Shown here: piece after piece, positions 1 through 13,025 of the stretch
How the letters are laid out: every line of letters starts with the position of its first letter
Position numbering within the stretch: the first letter of the stretch is position 1
DNA from: a virus
Virus record (IMG/VR): IMGVR_UViG_3300022851_000059
Span: 1 to 33,819 of that record
DNA: 33,819 nt
Strand: one strand, 5' to 3'
The notes under the pieces: model-generated
Database searches by the model: none
What the model was told of the DNA's origin: nothing
Seen by the model: only the letters and a program-made list of their open reading frames with translations
Program-made: the position numbers and the translations under genes

Positions 1-1
1 G

Positions 2-361
2 ACTAATGAAGAGAAGGTAATATACATCCTATCAAGTCCTGATGTTTCCTTGATGTGCAGTGTGCTTGAGAAATCAAACATGTGTTCATTAGCGTATACT
101 GAGTTTCATGCGATAGCCACAAGCCCGTCAGTTTTAGAAGCAGTAGGAGCAAGCTGTAAACATCAATTACTCATGGCCCAACCAGCAGTTACAAGGGCAA
201 CGATTGAATATGCAGTCAGTTCCCTCAGGGCATCATCAGATAGAAAGTTACTCATTCAGCTTGCCCAACCTAAGGATGGCGAGGGCGGGGCTGACCTTGA
301 TGTAACATCAGTCTTAAAAGAACTCCTATCAGAGTCTGACGATAAGGACTTCGTGTCTTAA
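2..361 (+). CDS. Left-truncated phage protein, probable small terminase subunit (module A)
   Basis: The reading frame is open to the left edge, so the first visible codon (base 2) is internal and the true start lies outside the window. The 119 visible residues are mostly helical, polar and acidic at the end, with no membrane segment or catalytic motif that I recognise. The assignment rests mainly on position: the gene ends 12 bases before a large terminase gene, where small terminase subunits normally sit, and module B has a small terminase-like gene at the equivalent place. A small terminase would recognise phage DNA and recruit the large subunit for packaging. The sequence is not obviously alignable with the module B protein, so the role is inferred. 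It could also be another small DNA-binding protein. Confidence 0.5.
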   Translation, partial: TNEEKVIYILSSPDVSLMCSVLEKSNMCSLAYTEFHAIATSPSVLEAVGASCKHQLLMAQPAVTRATIEYAVSSLRASSDRKLLIQLAQPKDGEGGADLDVTSVLKELLSESDDKDFVS

Positions 362-373
362 GAGGGGGGTGCT

Positions 374-2278
374 ATGATGTATCTTCATATATCCCTCTTC
401 AAGTACTTACAGCTAACGTGGTCGATGATTGAGCCTAACACTCCCTTCATATCCAACTGGCACATTCGTTACTTGTGCGATGTCTTAGAAAACGTGGGGC
501 CGGGAGAACGATTACTAATCAACCTCCCCCCAAGGTCTACAAAGAGTCTCCTAATCAATGTCATCTATCCTTGCTGGATGTGGGCGTGTAAAAATGCGGG
601 GGAGAAAGTTATCAACGTATCATATGCATCTCAATTGGCAACGACATTTAATATCCAACGTAGAACAATCTTACAGCACCCTCTACATAAAAAGCTTTTT
701 ACGCACATACGTATAACCGACATGAACAGACAAGCTAAGACAATCAACGACCAGCAAGGTTTCTTCTACGCAGTATCAACTAATGGACAAATTACGGGGA
801 GCGGCGGTAGTTGCTTTGTGGGAGAGACTGAGCTCATCACACCAACAGGACGGGAACTTATAGAAAATATTAAAGTAGGAGACTACGTACTATCATATAA
901 TCACACAACTAAAATAAATGAATTCAAACGAGTTGAAGTTACACGAACCTTAAATGACAAGGAAGTCATTCAATTAACGTGGTTGGGCGGGGTTAAAGGA
1001 TTAACATGTACCCCTGACCACTTGTTATTTAACGGGAGTGAATACATTGAAGCACAATCCATTACACAACTGTTTTTATTGTCAGATACAGTTCAGGCTA
1101 AAGACGGGACAAATGAACAAGTTAACTACACATCCGAACACCCAACTCTTCTGCAAGGGAGAGTGTTATCACATGGCAAGACGGGAAGGGCGGAAAGAAG
1201 AACTGTCTTTGATATACAAGTTGAAGGAAACCATAACTTCTACGCCAACGATATCTTAGCACACAACTGTATCATATTAGATGACCCAGAGAATCCATTA
1301 CATATAGAGAGTCCGACATACAGAGATAATACAAAGCACTTTGCAACACAGGTATTACCCTCAAGGCTTAACAGCGCGAACGGGGTAATCATATGTGTTC
1401 AACAAAGGTTACATCCTGATGACCTCTCAGCCCATTATAAAAAGGCGGGGTGGCGGCACATCTCTATACCAGCAACTACTGATATAGATAGACTCTATAG
1501 CTTACACAGTGGCAAGACATACACTTACAAAGCAGGTACAACATTAGATAATATACGATTACCACAATCAAAGCTTAATCAATTACGTTTAGACATGGGT
1601 GATGGCCCATTCAATGCACAATATCTACAAGATCCTAAAGAAGAAGACGTACAAACTGTTCAACGTTCATGGCTTAAGTTTAGTGAACCAGAGTTTCCTA
1701 TCCCTGAAACGGGGGGTAAAGGGTTCACAAAGGTTATATCAGTAGACTGTAGCTTTACTAAGTCTGTTAACAGTGACTATAACGCATTCGTTTGTGCGAG
1801 ACACAACAACGTTGATTACATGGTTGATTGGGTGATGAATAAGAAACTTGATTTCACTGAACTCACAGAGCACTTAATTAAAAGCATAAAGAATTACAGA
1901 CCTGATTACATACTTATTGAAGAGAAGGCAAATGGTGCTGCACTAATTGCTACCCTACGGAAGGCGGGCATAGAGAACATCATAAGCTATAGCCCCTCTT
2001 CAAGTAAGATACAGCGGTTCAATCAGTGCCTCCCCCGCATCAAGCAAGGTCATCTATATTTAAGTGGGGCGGTACCTGAAGAATTTATATCACAGCTAAC
2101 TTACTTCCCTAACGTAAAGCACGATGACATGGTCGATGCACTGGTTCAAATATTCCTTGCTTCAACATTCGTACCCCCGGTTAAGAAGAACCCTAAAGAT
2201 ATTCCTCACAGTAAAGAATGGTTCCAGGAAATGGCGAGAGCAAATAAAAAGCCTAGAGCAAGTGTTAATGATTGGTAA
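374..2278 (+). CDS. terL: Phage terminase large subunit interrupted by a mini-intein (module A)
   Basis: This is the packaging motor ATPase and nuclease. The precursor has 634 residues; removing the intein (residues 147-298) leaves 482, matching the 483-residue core of the module B terminase. The Walker A-like loop is LPPRSTKS (51-58). Walker B is IILDDP (300-305), directly after the intein. The C-terminal RNase H-like nuclease shows the expected acidic residues in VISVDCSF, YILIEEKANG and KHDDMVDA. All catalytic residues appear intact. The start ATG at 374 is preceded by the G-rich ribosome site AGAGGGGGGTG, and a second ATG follows immediately. Portal follows after about 30 bases, the usual packaging order. 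Activity should depend on protein splicing, because the intein separates the two ATPase motifs. Confidence 0.96.
   Translation: MMYLHISLFKYLQLTWSMIEPNTPFISNWHIRYLCDVLENVGPGERLLINLPPRSTKSLLINVIYPCWMWACKNAGEKVINVSYASQLATTFNIQRRTILQHPLHKKLFTHIRITDMNRQAKTINDQQGFFYAVSTNGQITGSGGSCFVGETELITPTGRELIENIKVGDYVLSYNHTTKINEFKRVEVTRTLNDKEVIQLTWLGGVKGLTCTPDHLLFNGSEYIEAQSITQLFLLSDTVQAKDGTNEQVNYTSEHPTLLQGRVLSHGKTGRAERRTVFDIQVEGNHNFYANDILAHNCIILDDPENPLHIESPTYRDNTKHFATQVLPSRLNSANGVIICVQQRLHPDDLSAHYKKAGWRHISIPATTDIDRLYSLHSGKTYTYKAGTTLDNIRLPQSKLNQLRLDMGDGPFNAQYLQDPKEEDVQTVQRSWLKFSEPEFPIPETGGKGFTKVISVDCSFTKSVNSDYNAFVCARHNNVDYMVDWVMNKKLDFTELTEHLIKSIKNYRPDYILIEEKANGAALIATLRKAGIENIISYSPSSSKIQRFNQCLPRIKQGHLYLSGAVPEEFISQLTYFPNVKHDDMVDALVQIFLASTFVPPVKKNPKDIPHSKEWFQEMARANKKPRASVNDW
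812..1267 (+). other. Mini-intein (152 aa) inside the module A large terminase
   Basis: The intein starts at Cys147 (CFVGETELITPTG, block A) and ends at His297-Asn298 followed by Cys299 as the +1 extein nucleophile (ILAHN/C, block G). A block B-like CTPDH motif lies in the middle, and a block F-like stretch ending in NHNFYAND lies just before the C-terminal junction. There is no LAGLIDADG or other homing-endonuclease domain, and the length fits a splicing-only mini-intein. It sits exactly between a GSGGS loop and the Walker B strand, a conserved ATPase site of the kind inteins favour. The GC-rich words typical of module A (for example GGGCGGGG near 985) also occur inside it, suggesting long residence. 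Every residue needed for splicing appears present. Confidence 0.95.
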
Positions 2279-2312
2279 CCCTCTACATAAAAACATAAAT
2301 CATTAAAAGGTG

Positions 2313-4025
2313 GTGAGTATCATCGATTGGTTTAACGCTAACGATCAAGGTAATAAAAATAAGACTGATATATTTAAAGAATATCAGAAGGTTCATACGT
2401 ACTTAGAGGTTACTGGTTACTACAAAAAGTTTCAAGAGTCATGGGACGTATGCTTAGGTAAGCAATGGCAAGACCTTGCAAACCTCCCCCCAATCATTCT
2501 GAATGTGGTGGGCCGGGTAGTTGACTTGTTCGTTGCATTCATATGTAGTGAGAAAATTGTAGTGCGACTAAGGGATGAATCGAACATTAATCTGGTAAGC
2601 AAAATAAACACTATCATAACAAAACGGTGGGAAGCAAGTAAGATGGACTCTCTTATTAGGAAGAACATCAAAGAACTAGCGGTTGGCGGGGATATGGCAT
2701 TCCATGTTTATTGGGATTCGAACATTAAGACCTCATTCAAGGAGGTTAAGAATAAAATCAGTGGAGACTTCTCTACTGAGACTATAGATCCTAACCGTGT
2801 ATTCCTTGGTAACACATCTAGCCCCACCATTAATAAGGAAGGGCGGGCGTGGCAGCCATGGATTATCCTTACCTCAGTAGAGCATATTTATAACATAAGA
2901 CAAATGGCTAGAGATAATGGTCACCCGAATCCTGAAACAATTGTTACCTCTGCATTAACGGGTAGTAGTGAGAACCATTATAACCAGGACTTACTCATCC
3001 AGGACGATTTGATTCAACTCTACACTAAGTATTATATAGAGAGCGGAACGGTGTGGTGTGTTCAAGCTACTGACCGTGACATTATACGACAACCATGGGA
3101 TACAGGTTTAACCCTCTACCCCATTGCTTATACTAACTGGCACAGTAAGCCTAACTCATATCGCGGGGTCGGGGCTGTTGAGAATGTTATATCGACTCAA
3201 TATATATTAAATCAATTACATTCAATGATGGCTAAGTGGATTAAGGCAATGGCATTCGGTAAGTATGCGTTCAACGTGGACATTATGCAGGAAATGAATA
3301 ATCTTGTAGGTGAAGCCATCCCGGTACGTGGGGCGGAGGATCTTAATAAAGTTATCTATCCGCTGCCCGTAGCCTCGATGCATCCAGGCGTCATGAGGTT
3401 TATTGAATCCACCTATAGCAAGTTACTTGATACTATGGGTGCAACAGATGCATTGATGGGTAATGTTAGACCTGATAATGCCTCAGCTATTGTAGCCGCC
3501 CAAAGGTTTGCGGCAGTTCCATTAGAGAACCCTAAGCAATCCCTCTACCAATGCATTGAGGATCTATCCCTTATATGGTTGGACTTCATGGGAACTTACT
3601 ATACAGCCCCACGGGACGGGGTAAGTACTGATACCCTTAAGAAATTAGATTTAGATGTACTCATAGATATAGGAGCTTCAACCTTCTATTCAGATATCTC
3701 TGTAATGCAGACACTTGATAACTTAATAAGTAAGCAACTCATTACTAAGCGGCAGTACTTGGAACGTGCAGTCGATAACTTCATACCTGATAAGCAAGGG
3801 ATCCTTGATGATCTTATAGAGGAAGAAGAAGCAGCTCAAGCTATGCAGGAACAGCAACCTCCTGTAGATGGACAACAACCTCCTGCGGGCGGCGGCCCAC
3901 CTGATGTAGCACAAGTAATAGAATCATTACCCCCAGATTTACGAGAACAGATAATGCATGTGTATCAAACTAAAGGGTCTGAAGAAGCATTAGCATTACT
4001 ACAGGATATTACGAGCCAACAATAA
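2313..4025 (+). CDS. Phage portal protein (module A)
   Basis: About 570 residues, homologous to the module B portal. Shared landmarks include the N-terminal LGKQWQDL versus EGDHWRGL region, the central NxxRPxNAxAIxAxQ stretch (GNVRPDNASAIVAAQRFAAVPLENPK in A, split by minor differences in B), and a C-terminal Pro/Gln-rich linker followed by a short helical tail. It would form the dodecameric ring at the capsid vertex through which DNA is packaged and ejected. Start choice is uncertain. GTG codons at 2310 and 2313 overlap an almost perfect ribosome binding site (AAGGTGGTGA, 2307-2316), which would be better spaced for ATC at 2322. An in-frame TAA at 2304 excludes any start further upstream. 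It lies between terminase and scaffold, as expected. Confidence 0.93.
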   Translation: MSIIDWFNANDQGNKNKTDIFKEYQKVHTYLEVTGYYKKFQESWDVCLGKQWQDLANLPPIILNVVGRVVDLFVAFICSEKIVVRLRDESNINLVSKINTIITKRWEASKMDSLIRKNIKELAVGGDMAFHVYWDSNIKTSFKEVKNKISGDFSTETIDPNRVFLGNTSSPTINKEGRAWQPWIILTSVEHIYNIRQMARDNGHPNPETIVTSALTGSSENHYNQDLLIQDDLIQLYTKYYIESGTVWCVQATDRDIIRQPWDTGLTLYPIAYTNWHSKPNSYRGVGAVENVISTQYILNQLHSMMAKWIKAMAFGKYAFNVDIMQEMNNLVGEAIPVRGAEDLNKVIYPLPVASMHPGVMRFIESTYSKLLDTMGATDALMGNVRPDNASAIVAAQRFAAVPLENPKQSLYQCIEDLSLIWLDFMGTYYTAPRDGVSTDTLKKLDLDVLIDIGASTFYSDISVMQTLDNLISKQLITKRQYLERAVDNFIPDKQGILDDLIEEEEAAQAMQEQQPPVDGQQPPAGGGPPDVAQVIESLPPDLREQIMHVYQTKGSEEALALLQDITSQQ

Positions 4026-4189
4026 CGACCTCATACGAGCCCCGTTAAGCCACCTGTTTTATTTATCAGGCATCAAGACACCTTACTTATCAAAGCCCTC
4101 TACGGGTTAGCAGTACATAACATTACCGACCGGGCGGCTACTCGGGTGAAAACATCAGTCCACTCAGGACTTAAAAGGGAGGGCTTTAC
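4026..4189 (+). other. Intergenic stretch between module A portal and scaffold
   Basis: This 164-base gap holds no convincing gene. It contains one copy of the CCCTCTA word (about 4099), which with GGGTT forms a small hairpin (AGCCC, tctac, GGGTT), and a weak CCTG/CAGG inverted repeat near 4050-4070. The scaffold ribosome binding site (AAAAGGGAGGG) lies at its right end. No convincing sigma-70 promoter was seen, although a leader or processing signal for the scaffold-coat transcript is possible. Confidence 0.4.
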
Positions 4190-5032
4190 ATGGAAGAACA
4201 AAAAGACTACAGCGTAGACGACCTATTAAATATGAGCGAAGAAGACTTCGAAGCTCTAGCAACAGATACGGTTAAGTGTACTGGATGTGGAATGACTCCT
4301 TGTATCTGTGATAGTGCAGAGGCTACTACTGAGGCACCAACAGACAATGACCCCGAACCGGGCGGGGAAGAGGACTTAGAGGATTATGACACTAATACGG
4401 AAACAGATGAGGGGGCGAACGAATCTACTGGTAAGACATTCACCCAAGAAGAGGTTAATACAATCATTAAGAAGCGGCTGGCTAAGGAGAAGGGTAAAGC
4501 ACCAGATGACCCCCTCTATTCATTCGCTATGGAGATTGTATCTGAATCTGGTATGGCACCTGAAGACTTCATCGCCCAAGCAAGGGCGGGGCGGGCTAAG
4601 AATCGTGAAGCTTATGAAACTAAGAAAGCATCTATGGAAGGTGTATCCCCTGAAGTCTATAAGGAGCTACAAGAGGCTAGGCAGATAAAGTCACAACATG
4701 CAGAGGATCAACGTAGGCGGCAAGGTGTAACTGAATTCCAAGCAGAGTTCCCTGATGTTTCATTGGATGATGTACCGGATGATATCGTACAGAAGTTCTT
4801 TGATAATGGTGGATCCCTGGTTGACCTATATGCCCGCCACGCGGTGAAACAGTTAAGGTCACAGAAACCTGATACTACTAAGCAAGCACCCGGTTCAGTA
4901 TCTAGCAAAGGGGCGGCTAAGAAGACACTGACTATGAAGGATCTGGAAGGTAAAGATAAACAATTCTTTATGGACAACTTAGATGAGATTGAAAAGCTAT
5001 ATGGTGATAAGCAGAAGAGGGGCGGGTATTAA
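4190..5032 (+). CDS. Capsid scaffold protein with an N-terminal Cys cluster (module A)
   Basis: 280 residues, strongly acidic N-terminal half (many Asp, Glu, Thr), then the motif TFTQEEVNTIIKKRLAKEKG that is typical of phage scaffold proteins. A helical middle and a lysine-rich end (KQKRGGY) follow. Scaffolds template procapsid assembly and then leave the shell. The module B gene at the same position has the equivalent YYTQDEINRMMADRARRE motif. Unlike B, the A protein carries four cysteines near its start, C30-x2-C33-x4-C38-x-C40, which could bind zinc. ATG 4190 has a good ribosome site (AAGGGAGGG, 9 bases upstream). The coat protein follows after 58 bases that contain two CCCTCTA words, one of them in a small CCCT-ctac-AGGG hairpin. 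Confidence 0.85.
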   Translation: MEEQKDYSVDDLLNMSEEDFEALATDTVKCTGCGMTPCICDSAEATTEAPTDNDPEPGGEEDLEDYDTNTETDEGANESTGKTFTQEEVNTIIKKRLAKEKGKAPDDPLYSFAMEIVSESGMAPEDFIAQARAGRAKNREAYETKKASMEGVSPEVYKELQEARQIKSQHAEDQRRRQGVTEFQAEFPDVSLDDVPDDIVQKFFDNGGSLVDLYARHAVKQLRSQKPDTTKQAPGSVSSKGAAKKTLTMKDLEGKDKQFFMDNLDEIEKLYGDKQKRGGY

Positions 5033-5090
5033 GCCCTCTAAAACAACAGGCCCTCTACAGGGTACTATAAATGAAGAGAGATGATTTATC

Positions 5091-5918
5091 ATGGCATTAT
5101 CAAATTTCCATTCAAACATCGTGGCGGCTACGGTATTGCGTACGCTGGAGGCAGAACTAGTAACAGATAAGATTACATTTCAGAAATATTCAGGGAAGGT
5201 TAAGTCAGGTGCAAGCTTAACATTCCCTTCACTTGCTGATCCTACAGTTTCTGCATATGGTGGGACTGTAACGTACGAAGAGTTGGTTGACTCCGCTGTT
5301 ACTATGCCTATCAACCAAGAAACCTACTTTGGATTTAAGGTAGATAAGCTGGATCAACAGAGAGCTGGAGTTAATCTGTTGATGGATCAATCAAAACGTG
5401 CGGGCTACGGACTAAAGAAATCTTGTGATGAGTATGTATTAGGTTTATATGCAGGACTTACTGCCGGCGTAACTGCAACTATCACTACTGCTAATATCCT
5501 CTCAACACTTGCTGAGATCGGTACTCAGCTTGCAGAGCAGAATGTTGACCATCCCTGGATTGTTCTCCCTCCTTCCGTCATCGCTAAGATTAAACTTGCA
5601 GGAGTTAGGTTCCAGGTTAACTCAGGTTCTAAAGGTGGAAAAGGCGGGGCTGAGGTATTTGTACAGGATGATATCAAAATGGATATCTACCAAAGTAACT
5701 TAGTAACAGAGTCTAGCTCTGATGTATTTGAAGTCCTTGCTGGTTCTTATGAGTCTATCGGGTTCGCTCAGCAAATCATGGATGTAGAAACTATCCAGGT
5801 ACTTCAAGGTTACCGTGGTTCAGCAGTACAAGGCTTCCATGTATATGGTGCTAAGATCTTGAAAGAGTATGAGTTGGTTCGTGCAACACTGACAATCGGT
5901 TCAGAGACAACTATCTAA
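5091..5918 (+). CDS. Major capsid protein, P22 coat-like (module A)
   Basis: 275 residues. The sequence aligns along its whole length with the module B coat protein: the N-terminal helix, the TFPSLADPTVSAY versus RFPGLNRPTVQAY strand, VTYEELVDSAVTM, the YFGFKVDKLD segment, and the closing HVYGAKILKEYELVRATL versus HVFGADILRPKEVIRLSL. This pattern is that of P22 gene 5-like, HK97-fold coat proteins, and about 275 residues is short for the family. It would build the icosahedral shell around the scaffold. ATG 5091 follows GAGAGATGATTTATC, nearly the same leader as the next gene, and the ribosome site is weak for such a highly expressed protein. A perfect 7-bp hairpin (5925-5944) follows the stop codon. 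Confidence 0.92.
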   Translation: MALSNFHSNIVAATVLRTLEAELVTDKITFQKYSGKVKSGASLTFPSLADPTVSAYGGTVTYEELVDSAVTMPINQETYFGFKVDKLDQQRAGVNLLMDQSKRAGYGLKKSCDEYVLGLYAGLTAGVTATITTANILSTLAEIGTQLAEQNVDHPWIVLPPSVIAKIKLAGVRFQVNSGSKGGKGGAEVFVQDDIKMDIYQSNLVTESSSDVFEVLAGSYESIGFAQQIMDVETIQVLQGYRGSAVQGFHVYGAKILKEYELVRATLTIGSETTI

Positions 5919-5924
5919 TTAAGT

Positions 5925-5944
5925 AGAGGGGTTCAGTCCCCTCT
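5925..5944 (+). other. Stem-loop after the module A coat gene
   Basis: AGAGGGG (5925-5931), loop TTCAGT, CCCCTCT (5938-5944): a perfect 7-bp stem seven bases after the coat-gene stop. There is no T-run, so it is more likely an mRNA 3' stabiliser or processing site than a full terminator. It contains the reverse complement of the CCCTCTA word that is frequent in this module. Confidence 0.6.
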
Positions 5945-5981
5945 TCAATTAAACTAAATATGAGAGAGAGAGTGATTTATA

Positions 5982-6365
5982 ATGGGTCTTTTAGTTGTAA
6001 ACAAAACTTTAACCTTTAATACATTAGCAACATCAGCAGCAACAGCGGCTACTTCAACTACTGCAGATGGAGCTCAATTGTTTGATATTGTACCTACTAC
6101 TAAAGCAGGTATCATCAAGATAGTTAACGCTTCAGGAGCCAATGGTACAGTTACGTTCAGCTTAGCAGTTGGTACACATGGCGGGAAGGCTAGTGCAGCT
6201 CTAACAGGTTCAGTAGCACAAGGTGTTACATCTTACCTTCAGGTTGATAGTGGTAAGTATGCAAACGATGATGGTGAGTTCGCTCTTACTATTACACCTG
6301 CCTCGGGTAAGAAGCTTCTGACAGACCACGCACTGACAGTTGAATACATTCAAGCAGCCCTATAA
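5982..6365 (+). CDS. Capsid decoration-like protein (module A)
   Basis: 127 residues, rich in Ala, Thr and Gly, with no Cys or membrane segment; it looks like a small beta-rich domain. It is homologous to the module B protein directly after the B coat gene: both end in a shared stretch (TPASGKKLLTDHALTVEY in A, TPATGKRLLTDHALTVSV in B). Position after coat and size fit a head decoration or stabilisation protein that binds the outer shell. That role is inferred from order; no named family was recognised. ATG 5982 is preceded by GAGAGAGAGTGATTTATA, resembling the coat-gene leader. An intrinsic terminator follows at 6376-6423. Confidence 0.65.
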   Translation: MGLLVVNKTLTFNTLATSAATAATSTTADGAQLFDIVPTTKAGIIKIVNASGANGTVTFSLAVGTHGGKASAALTGSVAQGVTSYLQVDSGKYANDDGEFALTITPASGKKLLTDHALTVEYIQAAL

Positions 6366-6375
6366 TAAAACTAGG

Positions 6376-6423
6376 TAGCCCCTCTCCTTTGCTCAGTCAT
6401 CGGTGGGGGGGCTATTTTTATTT
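6376..6423 (+). terminator. Intrinsic terminator after the module A decoration gene
   Basis: TAGCCCC (6376-6382) pairs with GGGGCTA (6408-6414), followed by TTTTTATTT. The loop of about 25 nt is long. It lies just upstream of the next gene's ribosome site, so incomplete termination would lower expression of the fibre-like genes relative to coat and decoration proteins. Module B has a terminator at exactly the same point (17464-17487). Confidence 0.75.
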
Positions 6424-6447
6424 CGAAAGAAAGGATGGTGCATAACG

Positions 6448-6963
6448 ATGAGCTTAACAGATCCAGTATTTGATGATGACACTATTCAACAGCTATCAGA
6501 TACACCTAACGCAACCGAGGGATTAACACCTGCACAACTCAAGGCTAAGTTCGACAAAGGTGTTGCAGATATTAAGACATACCTTGGATCATTAATAGAT
6601 GAACTTGAAAACTCCACCAGCGGTGCAGAGGGGGCGGCATCAATTGGTGTGACATACAAAAGCTTGCCCTCTACAGTACAGTCAGCATTAGATACAGTCA
6701 CTACGGATATAGAAGCCAACGTAGACACAGTTCAAGGTAACGTAGACACAGTTCAAGGTAACGTCGATGCAGTGCAGTCTAATGTAGATTCCCTGACATC
6801 AGCAGACATTAGTTATGATAATAGCGTGTCAAACATCCCTAACGCACCCTCTACAGCTCAGCAAGCTATCGAGGAAGTGGCAGTGTTGACGGGGGTAGAT
6901 GGCCTTCAGGCACTGATAGATAACAGTCTAAAGCGGATTGCATGGGGCGGCGCACCATACTAA
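6448..6963 (+). CDS. Fibre-like structural protein with coiled-coil heptads (module A)
   Basis: 171 residues from ATG 6448, chosen because AAAGGATGGTG lies 8 bases upstream; the open frame extends further but would overlap the terminator. The start (SLTDPVFDDDTIQQLSDTP) and the LTPAQLKAKFDKGVADIKTYL region resemble N-terminal attachment segments of phage fibres and baseplate accessory proteins. Next comes a run of seven-residue repeats (VDTVQGN, VDTVQGN, VDAVQSN, VDSLTSA) that should form a trimeric coiled coil, then a second helical part. It probably contributes to the receptor-binding apparatus together with the next gene. No enzyme motif is visible. Family assignment is tentative. Confidence 0.65.
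   Translation: MSLTDPVFDDDTIQQLSDTPNATEGLTPAQLKAKFDKGVADIKTYLGSLIDELENSTSGAEGAASIGVTYKSLPSTVQSALDTVTTDIEANVDTVQGNVDTVQGNVDAVQSNVDSLTSADISYDNSVSNIPNAPSTAQQAIEEVAVLTGVDGLQALIDNSLKRIAWGGAPY
6721..6783 (+). repeat. 21-bp tandem repeat encoding VDxVQxN heptads
   Basis: Two identical 21-bp units (6721-6741 and 6742-6762) and one diverged unit (6763-6783) encode the coiled-coil heptads of the fibre-like gene. The exact identity of the first two suggests a recent slippage duplication that lengthened the coil by one heptad. Confidence 0.85.
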
Positions 6964-6982
6964 ATATAAGGAGTGATGAACA

Positions 6983-8503
6983 ATGGCAGATTTACCATTT
7001 GATAGTGTTGTTGGCGTTGAGACCGCCGGAGTAGCGGTTGATATTTATGCTGATGGTTACGTTGGGGCGTGGTCAACTAGCAATCAATTAGTGTACTTAA
7101 CTGATGGATTAGGAGTGAATGTATTTACAACTCCATTGGGGGGCTTTAGTGCTAGAGCTTTTAAACATGAGCCGGGTAATGTGAGGGCTTATTCCGATCA
7201 AGGTGAGCGGTTCAATCACCCAGATCTTACATCTATAAATTCTAGCTTTCTAACTTATCTTTGTGCATGTAGAGTGACTGACACAAGGGCTATTGCGTTT
7301 ATAAGAGATAACAACGGCGTTGATGAGGTTGTTGCAGTACAAGTAGATGTAGACCCAGTGACGCTTGATGTAACAATGTCTGATGCAATCTCAATAAGTG
7401 GGACCGCAGGAGTACCTCTTGGCTGTGATTATGTAGATGCAGACAGGGTTATTGCTTTCTATAAAAACACAGTGGATAATAAGGGCTATGCTTGCATGGT
7501 GGACACTTCGGGAGTTGACCCTCTTCCGGGAACACTTAAGGAAGTTACGTTCTTCATAGCAGTTGACACTGGAACCAATAAAAGCTCTAACCATCAAATA
7601 GCTACACTGACTACTGTTAGCGCAGTCGCGACGTGGGTTACAGCTAGCGCGGTATACACTAAGTTCTTAAGTATATCAGATATGACGATAACGACATCCA
7701 CTTCTGAGGTCACCTATGCTCTTGCTGAACAGACGTATCAACCCGTAATCGTTCGCTTAACAGACACTTCATTCTTCGTTGTTGGTAGGCAGACTACTAG
7801 TAACTTTATGTACCAAGCCATAGGTAACGTTCCTGTCGCAACAATAACACTTTCTACGGGAACTATTAACTTATCTACTCATAATTTTTGGGGGGCTGTC
7901 GTAATAAATCCAACAACAGTTCGGTTAATTCATGACTATAGCAACACGCTTTCCCAGATAGACGTCACCCATAATGGGACTAGTGTTTCATCGTATGCCA
8001 GCACGACTATTTCAGCCTTGACCGATTATCACGGACCACCAAGGCCGAGTCCAACTTACGAACACAACACTTTTAATTTAGTGCTTTTAAACGGCGTAGT
8101 ACTTGCAGGTTACAACACAAATCATTATAATGCCAGAATGACTTTATTTAATGGAGTACAAGACAAGACGTTTGTTACGGAGTTGTACACTGTGCCAACA
8201 GGGTATCTTCTTGAGTTGACGTTGGTTATTGCTGCGTTGCCGGAACTTACTGGTTATCTATATGGCTTTGCGTACAACGATGTTACATCAATAAAATCAC
8301 CTGATATGAACCTTGCAGTTAATAGCTCGGAAAATGTTGCGTTGACTAGTAGCCGTAGTGAAGACGTTAATATGAAAATCATATCTTTACCCAACACGCC
8401 AATATTCTTGAGCGCGGGTGACAAGCTTCTCTACTACACAACGCACCAAAATAGTGGAAATCACAGAGTAACACTATCCGGCGTGCTCCGTGACATAAGC
8501 TAG
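6983..8503 (+). CDS. Probable tail fibre or receptor-binding protein (end of module A)
   Basis: 506 residues, beta-rich, with a repeating pattern of short strands and loops such as RVIAFYKN, PVIVRLTDTSFFVVG and NPTTVRLIHDYS, suggestive of a beta-propeller. It closes with a compact C-terminal part (TVPTGYLLELTLVIAALPELTGYLYG to VTLSGVLRDIS). No catalytic motif is evident. Position after a coiled-coil fibre protein and lack of homology to the other morphogenesis genes point to host recognition. ATG 6983 has AAGGAG 10 bases upstream. Base composition changes here: the CCCTCTA and GGCGG words of the upstream genes stop at about 6960, so this gene may have another origin. No further tail genes follow before the insertion sequence. 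Confidence 0.6.
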   Translation: MADLPFDSVVGVETAGVAVDIYADGYVGAWSTSNQLVYLTDGLGVNVFTTPLGGFSARAFKHEPGNVRAYSDQGERFNHPDLTSINSSFLTYLCACRVTDTRAIAFIRDNNGVDEVVAVQVDVDPVTLDVTMSDAISISGTAGVPLGCDYVDADRVIAFYKNTVDNKGYACMVDTSGVDPLPGTLKEVTFFIAVDTGTNKSSNHQIATLTTVSAVATWVTASAVYTKFLSISDMTITTSTSEVTYALAEQTYQPVIVRLTDTSFFVVGRQTTSNFMYQAIGNVPVATITLSTGTINLSTHNFWGAVVINPTTVRLIHDYSNTLSQIDVTHNGTSVSSYASTTISALTDYHGPPRPSPTYEHNTFNLVLLNGVVLAGYNTNHYNARMTLFNGVQDKTFVTELYTVPTGYLLELTLVIAALPELTGYLYGFAYNDVTSIKSPDMNLAVNSSENVALTSSRSEDVNMKIISLPNTPIFLSAGDKLLYYTTHQNSGNHRVTLSGVLRDIS

Positions 8504-8504
8504 T

Positions 8505-8533
8505 TTGAACACCGCGACAAAGTATGTTAGTAT
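8505..8533 (+). promoter_or_regulatory. Candidate sigma-70-type promoter after module A
   Basis: TTGAAC (8505-8510), a 17-bp spacer, then TAGTAT (8528-8533), starting one base after the fibre gene's stop. It points toward the stem-loop that the insertion sequence has split, so its original product may have been a short RNA. Weak evidence on its own. Confidence 0.35.
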
Positions 8534-8564
8534 ATTTTTAAACCAATTGCACTCCTTCAAATTT

Positions 8565-8577
8565 GAAATGCCCTTGC
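8565..8577 (+). terminator. Left arm of a stem-loop split by the insertion sequence
   Basis: GAAATGCCCTTGC (8565-8577) pairs with GCAGGGGCATTTC (10018-10030) over 13 bp with one G-T wobble. Before the insertion these arms were separated by a 7-nt loop. The element interrupts what looks like the hairpin closing module A. A T-run is lacking, so terminator strength is uncertain. Confidence 0.6.
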
Positions 8578-8580
8578 AGC

Positions 8581-8590
8581 CAACGCAGGG
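8581..8590 (+). repeat. Target-site duplication of the insertion sequence (left copy)
   Basis: CAACGCAGGG is directly repeated at 10014-10023 beyond the right inverted repeat. Ten bases is compatible with ISAs1-type transposition. Removing one copy plus the element rebuilds a continuous 13-bp stem-loop. Confidence 0.9.
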
Positions 8591-8617
8591 CAGGGTAATC
8601 GCTTACGGAAATTCGCT

Positions 8618-8645
8618 CTAAAAGCCTGTTCTAATAGGCTTTTAG
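8618..8645 (+). terminator. Perfect stem-loop at the left end of the insertion sequence
   Basis: CTAAAAGCCT (8618-8627), an 8-nt loop, AGGCTTTTAG (8636-8645): a perfect 10-bp stem whose 3' arm contains a TTTT run. Many insertion sequences carry such a hairpin near the transposase-proximal end to stop outside transcripts from driving transposase. That function is inferred. Confidence 0.55.
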
Positions 8646-9153
8646 ATGATAGATTGAATACAGAAGTCGAGCGATTCTTTCGTTAATGGATATTCATCCA
8701 ACAGAGTTGCTACTTGAGAATAAATCCGTTGTCGATTAGTCTAAACCAGACTATACACTGACATCGGGGAGACTTAAAATGATTGATTCACTGAAAACTT
8801 GCTTTGAAAAAATACCGGACTATAGAACAGGAAATGGATTGAAACATAAACTAATTGATATCCTAGTACTTTCAGTATTGGGCACACTTTGTGGGGCCGA
8901 TGGCTACACGGATATACAAGAATGGGGTAACTCTAACGAGGAATGGCTCAAAGATATTTTAGAGCTTCCGTTTGGTGTGCCTAGCCATGATGTGTTCGGA
9001 GACGTACTGGGGCGCTTGGAACCCGAAGGAATCCATGAGGCTTTTATGGAATGGGTTGCCTACTTGGACACAAAAATATCTGGGCGACAAATAGCCATCG
9101 ATGGGAAAACATTATGCGGCTCTGCAGATAAAGCTAATGGAAAAAAAGCATTG

Positions 9154-9253
9154 CATGTCGTAAGCGCATGGGCACGAGAAACTAGCCCGTGTGGGTGCGT
9201 GGATTGAAACTTTAAGTCTATCATGTCGTAAGCGCATGGGCACGAGAAACTAG
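9154..9253 (+). repeat. 32-bp direct repeat flanking a 36-bp insert inside the transposase
   Basis: Bases 9154-9185 and 9222-9253 are identical over 32 bp (they begin CATGTCGTAAGCGCATGG). Flanking bases differ on both sides, so 32 is the exact length. Between them lie 36 bp (9186-9221) not related to transposase. The layout, one unit duplicated around a spacer-sized insert, matches a single Cas1-Cas2 integration event: type I-C repeats are about 32 nt and spacers about 33-37 nt. Confidence 0.95.
9186..9210 (+). CRISPR. Fragment of a type I-C-like CRISPR repeat inside the insert
   Basis: These 25 bases start CCCGTGT and continue GGGTGCGTGGATTGAAAC, the 3' part of a type I-C repeat (3' end GCGTGGATTGAAAC or -AAAT; half of the palindromic stem). 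About 7 bases of the usual GTCGC... 5' end are missing. The next 11 bases (9211-9221, TTTAAGTCTAT) would be the beginning of a spacer in the source array. There is no CRISPR array here, only this fragment, and no cas gene in the window. The identification rests on my knowledge of the repeat family, not on a search. Confidence 0.75.
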
Positions 9254-10032
9254 GGTTGTTTTAGGTCAGTTAGCGACAGAAGAGAAAAGTAATGAAATAA
9301 CTGCTATACCTGAATTGTTAAAGAAACTCTGTTTGAAAAATGCAGTGATCACGATCGATGCGATGGGTACTCAAAAGAAAATAGCTGAGCAGATTATTAA
9401 GCAGGAAGCCGATTATGTCCTTGCTCTAAAAGATAATCAAAAGACGTTATGCCAGGATACAGTGCTGCTGTTTGACGAGCTGATAAGCGATATAAACCCA
9501 GAGGAAAAAGAGCTGTTGAAGCAGCAAAAGCGCTATCATAGAACACTTGATAACAGTCATGGACGAATGGAAATCCGTGAGTACTATGTGATTCACGATA
9601 TAGAATACATCAAGCAAAATCATCACTTCAAAGGGTTATCTTGTCTTGGCATGTGTGTCAGTCGCAGGCAGGTAGGCGATAAAACTACTGTAAATTATCA
9701 CTACGATATTTGTAGCATTGAACATTGTACTGCCGAGGCGTATGCACAGTATAAACGCGGACATTGGTCTGTTGAAAACGGCCTCCACTGGGTATTAGAC
9801 GTAGCCTTCCGAGAAGATCTCAGCAGGATTCGCAAAGGTAGTGGAGCTGAGAACGTCTCTGTATTTAGGCACCTTGCAACGAGTTTACTCAAGCAAGAAC
9901 CCTCGAAACTGGGCATTGCGGCTAAGCGGAAAAAGTGTGGATGGGATAAAACATTTCTTTTTAAAGTCCTTGGAATTGATTTAACTGGGATTAATCGGTA
10001 AGCGATTACCCTGCAACGCAGGGGCATTTCGC

Positions 10033-10061
10033 TTTACACTGCGCTATTAAGCGCGTATAAT
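10033..10061 (+). promoter_or_regulatory. Near-consensus sigma-70-type promoter with a dyad in its spacer
   Basis: TTTACA (10033-10038), a 17-bp spacer, TATAAT (10056-10061): five of six and six of six consensus bases at optimal spacing. The spacer contains the inverted repeat GCGCT-atta-AGCGC, a possible operator. Transcription should begin near 10068 and meets a terminator at 10116-10138. Confidence 0.65.
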
Positions 10062-10067
10062 AAGCCG

Positions 10068-10138
10068 TAGCTGCATGTTGTAACATTAAATTTTTCTTCC
10101 GAAAATTGCTGAGATGGGCGCCTAACGGCGTCCTTTTT
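10068..10138 (+). ncRNA. Candidate ~70-nt small RNA or attenuated leader
   Basis: The interval runs from the predicted start of the strong promoter to an intrinsic terminator. It contains a small hairpin (TTTTC 10092-10096, loop TTCC, GAAAA 10101-10105) before the terminator stem. Only two- or three-codon reading frames occur in it, so it is not a peptide gene. It could act as a free regulatory RNA or as a leader that attenuates transcription into the 288-residue gene downstream. No known RNA family was recognised. Confidence 0.4.
10116..10138 (+). terminator. Intrinsic terminator upstream of the accessory gene
   Basis: GGGCGCC (10116-10122) pairs with GGCGTCC (10127-10133) with one G-T wobble and a 4-nt loop, followed by TTTTT (10134-10138). 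It ends the candidate small RNA and would insulate the downstream gene from transcription coming out of module A and the insertion sequence. Confidence 0.85.
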
Positions 10139-10141
10139 AGT

Positions 10142-10174
10142 ATGTTGAAAAACATCATTAGATTATGGTATGCT
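10142..10174 (+). promoter_or_regulatory. Promoter with overlapping dyad for the 288-residue gene
   Basis: TTGAAA (10145-10150), an 18-bp spacer and TATGCT (10169-10174). The -35 box lies inside the inverted repeat ATGTT-gaaa-AACAT (10142-10155), which could be a repressor site. It lies directly after a terminator and about 40 bases before the start codon, so the gene downstream probably has its own transcription unit. Confidence 0.5.
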
Positions 10175-10214
10175 CACTAAGCAGCAATTTTTAAAATTCG
10201 GAAGGAGAATGATT

Positions 10215-11081
10215 ATGTGCCAAATAAAAGCAGGAGAATTAACGCCAGTGGATGTTGAGATGGAGTTTGTAAACGAGGTTTTTAACTTGAGGATTTCGGC
10301 GAATTATGAAATTAAAGGGGATATATTAGTACTGCAACTGCACGAGATAAAAGCGGGATTGGCATCACTTTCTGGCGAAGCACGCTTACCGTCCGGCGAG
10401 CTAAAGTGTTTTGATAATCTTGCAGATAGCGTAGCCACGCTTTCAGATGAAATTGGTTTGGGAACTCATAAACTCAAAAATAAGTACGAAACGTACCTGT
10501 CAATTGTAATTAATGCGCTGGGCTACGCATACCGAAACGAATTGTTTGAACTACGAGATTTCCAGACGCAAAGAGGTGATATTGAGGTTGATAAATTCAA
10601 TGCTGAGCATGTAAACTTACAACTAAGCGACATCCCTAAATATGTCATGAACATGATTCTCGGGTTGCGCAGTCTCATAAAGACGGATGAATTCAGTGCC
10701 AGGTTAAAGAGTGGAGAAAAGGAGTTCGCAAACGTAGTCGTGATGCTTGGTGTGATGCTCCGGCTTGTTTGCAGGAAGTTTAGTGACGGCGTGAAACGCT
10801 GTGATAATGAACCGATAGCTCTTAGATACTTCTTTATGCATGAGATAGAAGATGTCAACAAGGCGCTCAGGACCGTTGAAGGCGGTCCTGAGTCTGTCGG
10901 AGGTACCTGCCCAAGATATAGGTCAGTGAATAATAAAGTGAAGCCTAGCGATATAAAAGAGTTGTCAGATTTAGTTGGTGATCTAATTGGGTTAATAAAA
11001 GGTAAGGAAGGTAAGAAGAGCTACGAAGACGGTATGACGCCTGATATGCGCGAAATGTTGAAGAAGCTGACGAAGCGATAA
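10215..11081 (+). CDS. Unknown 288-residue protein, autonomous accessory (moron-like) gene
   Basis: I do not recognise this protein. It is soluble and mixed alpha/beta at first (CQIKAGELTPVDVEMEFVNEVFNLR), mainly helical in the middle (KYVMNMILGLRSLIKTDEF), and ends in a basic helical tail (MTPDMREMLKKLTKR). No signal peptide or catalytic motif is obvious. ATG 10215 was chosen because GGAAGGAG ends 7 bases upstream; ATG 10209 is an alternative. The gene sits alone between a terminator-promoter pair and its own strong terminator, separating two late gene modules. That is the pattern of a moron: a gene added to a phage and expressed independently, often for host fitness or phage exclusion. That role is inferred from layout only. 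TCCGG words link it to module B. Confidence 0.75.
   Translation: MCQIKAGELTPVDVEMEFVNEVFNLRISANYEIKGDILVLQLHEIKAGLASLSGEARLPSGELKCFDNLADSVATLSDEIGLGTHKLKNKYETYLSIVINALGYAYRNELFELRDFQTQRGDIEVDKFNAEHVNLQLSDIPKYVMNMILGLRSLIKTDEFSARLKSGEKEFANVVVMLGVMLRLVCRKFSDGVKRCDNEPIALRYFFMHEIEDVNKALRTVEGGPESVGGTCPRYRSVNNKVKPSDIKELSDLVGDLIGLIKGKEGKKSYEDGMTPDMREMLKKLTKR
10866..10892 (+). other. Perfect 10-bp stem-loop inside the accessory gene
   Basis: CTCAGGACCG (10866-10875), loop TTGAAGG, CGGTCCTGAG (10883-10892). A perfect GC-rich stem in coding sequence with no T-run. It could be an RNA structure or a protein-binding dyad, or coincidence. Confidence 0.5.
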
Positions 11082-11500: not shown

Positions 11501-13025
11501 CGTACCACCGGAGTTACAGAGCCAGTACAATCAATATATCCTTAGTGAGCTGAGAGACACGTGCTTCAATTCCTTGTTGGCGTATCAGACAACATTCTGG
11601 AAGGTACTTGAACCAGCTACGGAGTACAAGGATAATTGGCATTTGCACTATATGATTGAGCATTTAGAAGCCGTGGAAGCAGGACAAATAACACGGTTGC
11701 TACTCAATCTCCCCCCCCGTTGTATGAAAAGCATACTTACAAACGTCATGTACGGCTCTTGGTTATGGGCTAGAAGACCGGAAACGAGAATGTTGTCATT
11801 CTCCTATTCCGACTCGCTCGCAAAGAAGTTCAACATCGACAGGCGTAATATTATGCAATCCAACCTATATAAGCAGCTATTCCCAGATGTAAAGCTGAAA
11901 GGTGACATGAATACCCAAAAGAAAATTGAAAACACAAAAACAGGAATGATGCTTGCTTCTCCTATGCCTGGTACCGCGACGGGTGAGGGTGGCGATTTGA
12001 TTATCATTGATGATCCACATGACCCACAGGGCGCTGAGAGTGATGCGGAACGTGGTAAACAAGTCGATTACTTCCGGCAAAGTATTCCTTCGAGGCTTAA
12101 CGATAAGCAAACGGGCGCGATTATTGTCGTTATGCAACGCCTTAACCAAGGTGATGTATCCGGGGTAGCTCTTGAACTTGATGATTATGTACACGTCAAG
12201 TTGCCATCTGAAGAACGCTTAGAGCGTACTTTAATATTCCCTATGTCCGGCAGAACCATACACCGTAAGAAAGGTGATGTTTTATGGCCAGCACGTGAGC
12301 CGCAGGAAACGCTAGACAAGCTCAAAAGGATGTTGGGTGAGTACGGATATACCGGGCAGTATTTGCAAGAGCCATCGCCTTTATCCGGTGGGATGGTTAA
12401 AGAAGCGTGGTGGCAGTTCTACACCAAGATAGAAGAGCCGATAACACGGTGGTGCCTGTCAGTAGATGCCGCATTCAAGAAGTCGGACACCTCGGACTTT
12501 ATAGTTATTCAGCGTTGGGGGATTGGCGTCTCCGGAAGAATGTACCTAACTGAGATGGTCCGGGAGCGTATGACTTTTATTGAAACCGTGGACGCGATAC
12601 TGGTAATGCGTAGACGTAACGACATCTTGTACATTGAGGAAAAGGCGAATGGCAGCGCGATTATAGATGTACTCCGGCGCAAAGTAAGCGGAGTCATTGC
12701 TTACAATCCCACCGAAAGCAAGATTGCCAGGCTCCAAGCCGTATCGCCATGGATACAAGCTGAATCGGTGTACATTTACAAGTTTGCGCCATGGAAACAA
12801 ATCTTCATTGACGAGTTTAACTTTTTTCCTAATGGTAAGAACGATGACATAGTAGACGCCACAACACAGGCGATTATCAAGATAAAAGACATAAGGCCGG
12901 GAGAATTGCGAGAACCCGTCGTTGACGACGTAAGACATTTTGCTCCGGCTGTACAGCATGATGGTGATGGTGAACGGTGGGAAGATGAATTGTTTAGTGA
13001 CTTCTCGGGTGAATTTAACGGATAG
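11475..13025 (+). CDS. terL: Phage terminase large subunit, intein-free (module B)
   Basis: Packaging ATPase and nuclease. Numbering from the TTG at 11574 gives a 483-residue core: Walker A-like LPPRCMKS (46-53), Walker B LIIIDDP (142-148), and nuclease residues D298 (CLSVDAAF), E355 (YIEEKANG) and D424/D428 (KNDDIVDA). It aligns with the spliced module A terminase throughout. The frame stays open and protein-like upstream of TTG 11574 (ELRDTCFNSLLAYQTTFWK), but contains no ATG, GTG or TTG. AAAGGAGG at 11458-11465 lies 9 bases before ATT 11475, so I use this rare AUU start; CTG 11484 and TTG 11574 are alternatives. At the intein site of copy A this protein has Asp-Leu, without the +1 Cys. Confidence 0.93.
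   Translation: MRSLITPDSVPPELQSQYNQYILSELRDTCFNSLLAYQTTFWKVLEPATEYKDNWHLHYMIEHLEAVEAGQITRLLLNLPPRCMKSILTNVMYGSWLWARRPETRMLSFSYSDSLAKKFNIDRRNIMQSNLYKQLFPDVKLKGDMNTQKKIENTKTGMMLASPMPGTATGEGGDLIIIDDPHDPQGAESDAERGKQVDYFRQSIPSRLNDKQTGAIIVVMQRLNQGDVSGVALELDDYVHVKLPSEERLERTLIFPMSGRTIHRKKGDVLWPAREPQETLDKLKRMLGEYGYTGQYLQEPSPLSGGMVKEAWWQFYTKIEEPITRWCLSVDAAFKKSDTSDFIVIQRWGIGVSGRMYLTEMVRERMTFIETVDAILVMRRRNDILYIEEKANGSAIIDVLRRKVSGVIAYNPTESKIARLQAVSPWIQAESVYIYKFAPWKQIFIDEFNFFPNGKNDDIVDATTQAIIKIKDIRPGELREPVVDDVRHFAPAVQHDGDGERWEDELFSDFSGEFNG

Follow-up and report, generated by a model that had tools for sequence, protein, structure and literature searches.

A large terminase subunit (TerL A) encoded near the left end of the window contained, as judged from its motifs, family matches and alignment, a class 1 mini-intein that consists of the splicing domain only and precedes the Walker B strand. 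The window is the whole stretch of 33,819 nucleotides that was analyzed (IMG/VR virus record IMGVR_UViG_3300022851_000059, positions 1 to 33,819). It is highly probable that this is an ordinary, constitutive mini-intein of one phage (phage A), and that the second, uninterrupted terminase in the window (TerL B) comes from a co-occurring phage (phage B), the contig having been joined at a near-identical gene.

The TerL A reading frame (374–2278, plus strand) encodes 634 residues, of which 152 form an in-frame insert at 812–1267. The sequence across the insert reads QITGSGGS/CFVGETELITPTG...RRTVFDIQVEGNHNFYANDILAHN/CIILDDP. According to the family matches and the TerL alignment, the N-terminal extein (374–811) comprises the ATPase domain up to ITGSGGS, with a Walker A motif, PPRSTKS, read from the sequence at 527–547 in a column conserved in the TerL alignment. 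The C-terminal extein (1268–2275) carries Walker B (CIILDDP), the QRLHPDD coupling motif and the RNase H-like nuclease. These motifs were all found in the exteins by alignment, and the exteins matched Terminase_6C (3.1e-13) and phrog_38 (3.8e-77). Removal of the intein leaves 634 − 152 = 482 residues. The sequence-only reading had proposed a splicing-only intein of this length between GSGGS and CIILDDP, and a spliced product of this size; both agreed with the motifs, the family matches and the arithmetic.

The insert matched the Pfam family Intein_splicing (5.9e-9) and both NCBIfam end models, intein_Nterm and intein_Cterm, above their curated cut-offs, so it is not a chance match. The Pfam and NCBIfam matches of the 152-residue intein included none to an endonuclease between blocks B and F. 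The signature of a class 1 intein was present at both ends: the N-terminal nucleophile (C1 of CFVGETELITP, 812–814), the TxxH of block B (T67-P-D-H70, 1010–1021) and the C-terminal H151-N152/C+1. The last includes block G (His151-Asn152, 1262–1267), in which Asn152 (1265–1267) is the residue for cyclization, and Cys+1 (1268–1270), the first residue of the C-extein, which was placed by the sequence, the site pattern and the TerL alignment. C1, T6, T67, H70, H151 and N152 were invariant when the TerL A intein was aligned with 14 further ones, of which 13 occupy this TerL site and one (L006, IMGVR_UViG_3300020454_000018) comes from another protein. L006 itself is a 779-residue reading frame with two consecutive HINT domains, the first of which is followed by Arg and not by a nucleophile; they therefore resemble the intein-like domains of bacteria (BIL domains) more than inteins.

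An AlphaFold model of the intein was built from this 15-intein alignment. It had a mean pLDDT of 82.7, with residues 93–111 (a linker) unreliable. The predicted structure matched solved inteins with E values from 1e-9 to 1e-7, which points to a HINT fold. The matches included NrdJ-1 (TMq 0.72), gp41-1 (0.70), NpuDnaB (0.77) and also Ssp DnaB, and a profile search against PDB sequences with the intein gave the same families. gp41-1, NrdJ-1 and NpuDnaB, which are solved mini-inteins, share the HINT fold and the block F/G motif with the TerL A intein but sit in other host proteins, and two of them, gp41-1 and NrdJ-1, occur in nature as split inteins. Third-position GC was equal in the intein (0.36) and the C-extein (0.375), and thus gave no sign of a very recent import.

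The same insertion point was found in many other terminases. The DNA pattern for HN/C-x-I-(hydrophobic)-DDP, in which the Cys at +1 was fixed so that inteins followed by Ser or Thr would escape, occurred in at least 119 stretches of IMG/VR. In one-per-species bacterial genomes it occurred in 17 stretches, several of them clear prophage terminases and a few matches by chance. Among the 136 reading frames translated from the matches listed in the two scans combined, 104 matched the TerL A extein. In Escherichia phage BUCT618 (OM735461), Gordonia phage Clown (MT771343) and more than 100 IMG/VR TerLs, the insertion lay in the identical alignment column, before C-x-I-I-D-D-P. The inteins at this site share Cys1 and Cys+1 with that of TerL A, and block F/G is typical in most; their identity to it, on the other hand, is only about 25–44%. 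Among the matches listed, sizes of about 135–146 residues were frequent and sizes of 280–400 residues likewise, the latter contrasting with the 135–152 residues of mini-inteins such as the present one. A search for close relatives of TerL A recovered only the contig G001. Judged from these patterns and alignments, inteins are found again and again at the position before Walker B of phage terminases, with more than 100 examples that include mini-inteins of 135–152 residues.

Inteins at Walker B of terminases (TerL1-e) have been described by Kelley et al. 2016, and the representative from Gaia gp2 splices readily (PMC5050341). These mycobacteriophage inteins resemble the TerL A intein in interrupting Walker B of the large terminase, a likeness at the level of the motif (PMC5050341). 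They are, however, of class 3, with a WCT triplet and no Cys1, whereas the TerL A intein has Cys1 and falls outside that group. AceL-TerL and GOS-TerL are likewise small terminase inteins of metagenomic phages, and AceL-TerL also uses Cys1 and Cys+1; both are naturally split, while the TerL A intein is contiguous; the likeness is one of size and, for AceL-TerL, of chemistry (PMC11766414). The terminase inteins of Kelley et al. 2016 were in the ATPase domain only (PMC5050341). Two TerL reading frames (L015 and L019, 776 and 635 residues) have an intein in the nuclease domain, NAHDDA/CFVAGT...NNVLVSN/CDAVTG, adjoining a catalytic-Asp motif. At 7899–8273 of IMGVR_UViG_3300023240_000409 (L041), just to the left of the start of the window and about 1 kb upstream of the intein-bearing TerL A, there is a gene for a free-standing GIY-YIG endonuclease (Pfam 6.4e-12). 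It is a candidate that might mobilize the endonuclease-less intein (collaborative homing).

TerL A would be translated as the 634-residue precursor, with the intein just before the Walker B strand. By established intein chemistry, a class 1 intein should splice through Cys1, Cys+1 and Asn152. The intein would thus remove itself by an N-S shift at Cys1, transfer to Cys+1, cyclization of Asn152 and an S-N shift, to give a 482-residue TerL with a continuous ITGSGGS-CIILDDP. We infer that the TerL A intein does splice. Because the insertion lies between Walker A on one side and Walker B and the nuclease on the other, the unspliced precursor should be an inactive motor that packages no DNA, and splicing should be obligatory. 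The same separation supports the earlier proposal that TerL A needs splicing in order to package DNA.

As a further reading, the segment would be the remnant of an intein that no longer splices, or a domain of the extein retained in the protein. This is hardly likely at all, since the catalytic residues are all intact and the frame is open, and the intein-free relatives lack exactly this segment. A chance match or an extein domain was also ruled out by the family matches, the TerL alignment and the invariant catalytic residues. As for the timing, splicing is most likely constitutive, after translation. A conditional switch, in which Cys1/Cys+1 or metal binding ties the maturation of TerL A to redox, zinc or temperature and thereby times the packaging of phage A, is improbable. 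Redox and temperature effects do exist in other inteins. AceL-TerL, a split terminase intein adapted to the cold, comes from an Antarctic saline lake and has its optimum at 8 degrees C (PMC11766414), and the retention of inteins at catalytic sites has been interpreted as regulatory (PMC5050341). On the other hand, the TerL A intein is without any peculiar feature that would indicate a switch, and the combination of Cys1 with Cys+1 is very common and no evidence of regulation. Moreover, the TerL inteins so far tested, including one at Walker B, spliced quickly in E. coli, and the precursor was readily visible in only one of the five (PMC5050341). AceL-TerL shows that TerL inteins can be tuned to the environment; it is no evidence of such tuning in the TerL A intein.

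TerL B (11574–13025, plus strand), assigned to phage B by family matches, contig comparison and the TerL alignment, is uninterrupted at the homologous point (GEGGD/LIIIDDP; ATGEGGDLIIIDDP / GEGGDLIIIDDP). Its Asp-Leu aligns with the Ser-Cys of TerL A and, as had been noted before, provides no nucleophile at +1. Eighty TerL relatives were fetched, by a search that favored contiguous matches, and 73 of them were classifiable at +1 and intein-free. None of the 73 had Cys at this position (I in 37, R in 14, V in 7, T in 6, F in 5, A in 2 and L in 2). The Asp-Leu of TerL B is therefore the normal state and no special arrangement. The presence of an intein in only one of the two terminases, which the sequence-only reading had singled out, is thus true of the sequence, but not special: more than 100 other TerLs share the site, and none of the 73 classified intein-free relatives has the Cys.

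The two terminases probably do not belong to one genome. Annotation and contig comparison assigned 1–6930 (plus strand) to phage A, with a possible TerS, TerL A, the portal, the scaffold, the major capsid and decoration proteins and a fiber-like gene. To the right of it lies a 506-residue reading frame common to phages A and B (6983–8503, plus strand), probably for a receptor-binding or fiber protein, in which the contigs are joined. G003 (IMGVR 3300022848_000022, 39,298 bp) contains window 6931–33819 with TerL B only, and to the left of 6931 it has other genes and no TerL A. Its 12 mismatches with the window are all at 6936–7197, followed by none in 26,622 bp. In another sample (3300023240), phages A and B are on separate contigs: G001 (8,785 bp), in which TerL A is 100% identical, ends at window position 7324, and G002 (32,245 bp), with TerL B, starts at 7198. 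The overlap of the two is exactly 127 bp (7198–7324), which probably marks a fork in the assembly graph and the chimera junction; metaSPAdes is commonly run with k-mers of up to 127. G003 begins with 220 bp that are identical to the right end of G002, so that phage B can be closed to a circle of about 41.1 kb in which module A is absent. We interpreted the window as probably a chimeric contig, in which the assembler joined the co-occurring phages A and B at the shared gene, near 7198.

The alternative, that the contig is real and represents a recombinant phage with two complete head and packaging modules, in which the motor used depends on whether the TerL A intein has spliced, is unlikely. 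The sequence is contiguous in the given sample, the adjacency of the A part and the shared gene recurs in another sample as abutting contigs, and the matching 8-bp duplications at the flanks of an insertion sequence (IS) to the right of the junction indicate that this stretch is sound. Against it stand the closed circle of phage B and the 127-bp overlap, exactly the length expected at a fork from an assembler with k = 127. Composition also differs on the two sides: the tetranucleotide correlation of the left part of A was 0.62 with its own extension and 0.61 with the shared gene, and that of the left and right parts of B was 0.51–0.67, versus 0.24–0.42 between A and B. Polymorphism was unequal as well; in one and the same sample pair, 3 differences fell in the 7.3 kb of the A part and none in the 26.6 kb of the B part. 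Furthermore, two head modules would be hard to package in a phage of about 40 kb. It counts against the chimera, on the other hand, that a search for contigs in which phage A continues differently to the right of 7324, through the shared 506-residue gene and an exact 61-mer, gave only the three known contigs. A genuine recombinant with two divergent head and packaging modules, in which one motor is released only by splicing, so that splicing selects the set of capsid and motor, is less probable still, and we consider it very doubtful. The suggestion that the two motors could be differently regulated in the same cell was not upheld, as the modules most likely come from two co-occurring phages, and no evidence of conditional splicing was found.

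The shared gene was 97–100% identical in DNA between the otherwise different phages, in the part seen in both, and its tetranucleotide signature was A-like. The likely explanation is that a gene for host recognition was exchanged recently.

The IS, an ISAs1-like element at 8590–10014 with 20-nt terminal inverted repeats, was rejected as the point of the chimera: the same 8-bp target duplication, AACGCAGG, is present at both ends, and the phage B contigs cross it unchanged. Its insertion site is a stem-loop, GAAATGCCC...GGGGCATTTC, resembling a transcription terminator, and an Rfam search of 8400–10400 found nothing. Inside its transposase gene, at 9154–9253, a 32-bp exact duplication surrounds a 36-nt insert, CCCGTGTGGGTGCGTGGATTGAAACTTTAAGTCTAT, which shifts the reading frame and was seen in three assemblies. 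The insert begins with 25 nt that make up the 3' end of a CRISPR repeat of 32 nt, GTCGCACCCCGTGTGGGTGCGTGGATTGAAAC, from an array on a Parabacteroides plasmid. The duplication is as long as the repeat, and the insert is close in length to the spacers of that array (about 33–35 nt). The insert thus carries the sequence signature of off-target integration, by Cas1-Cas2, of DNA derived from an array.

Other findings of a 'duplicated head module' from this window probably reflect the chimeric contig. For the phage terminases, the TerL A case adds one mini-intein to a very common site.
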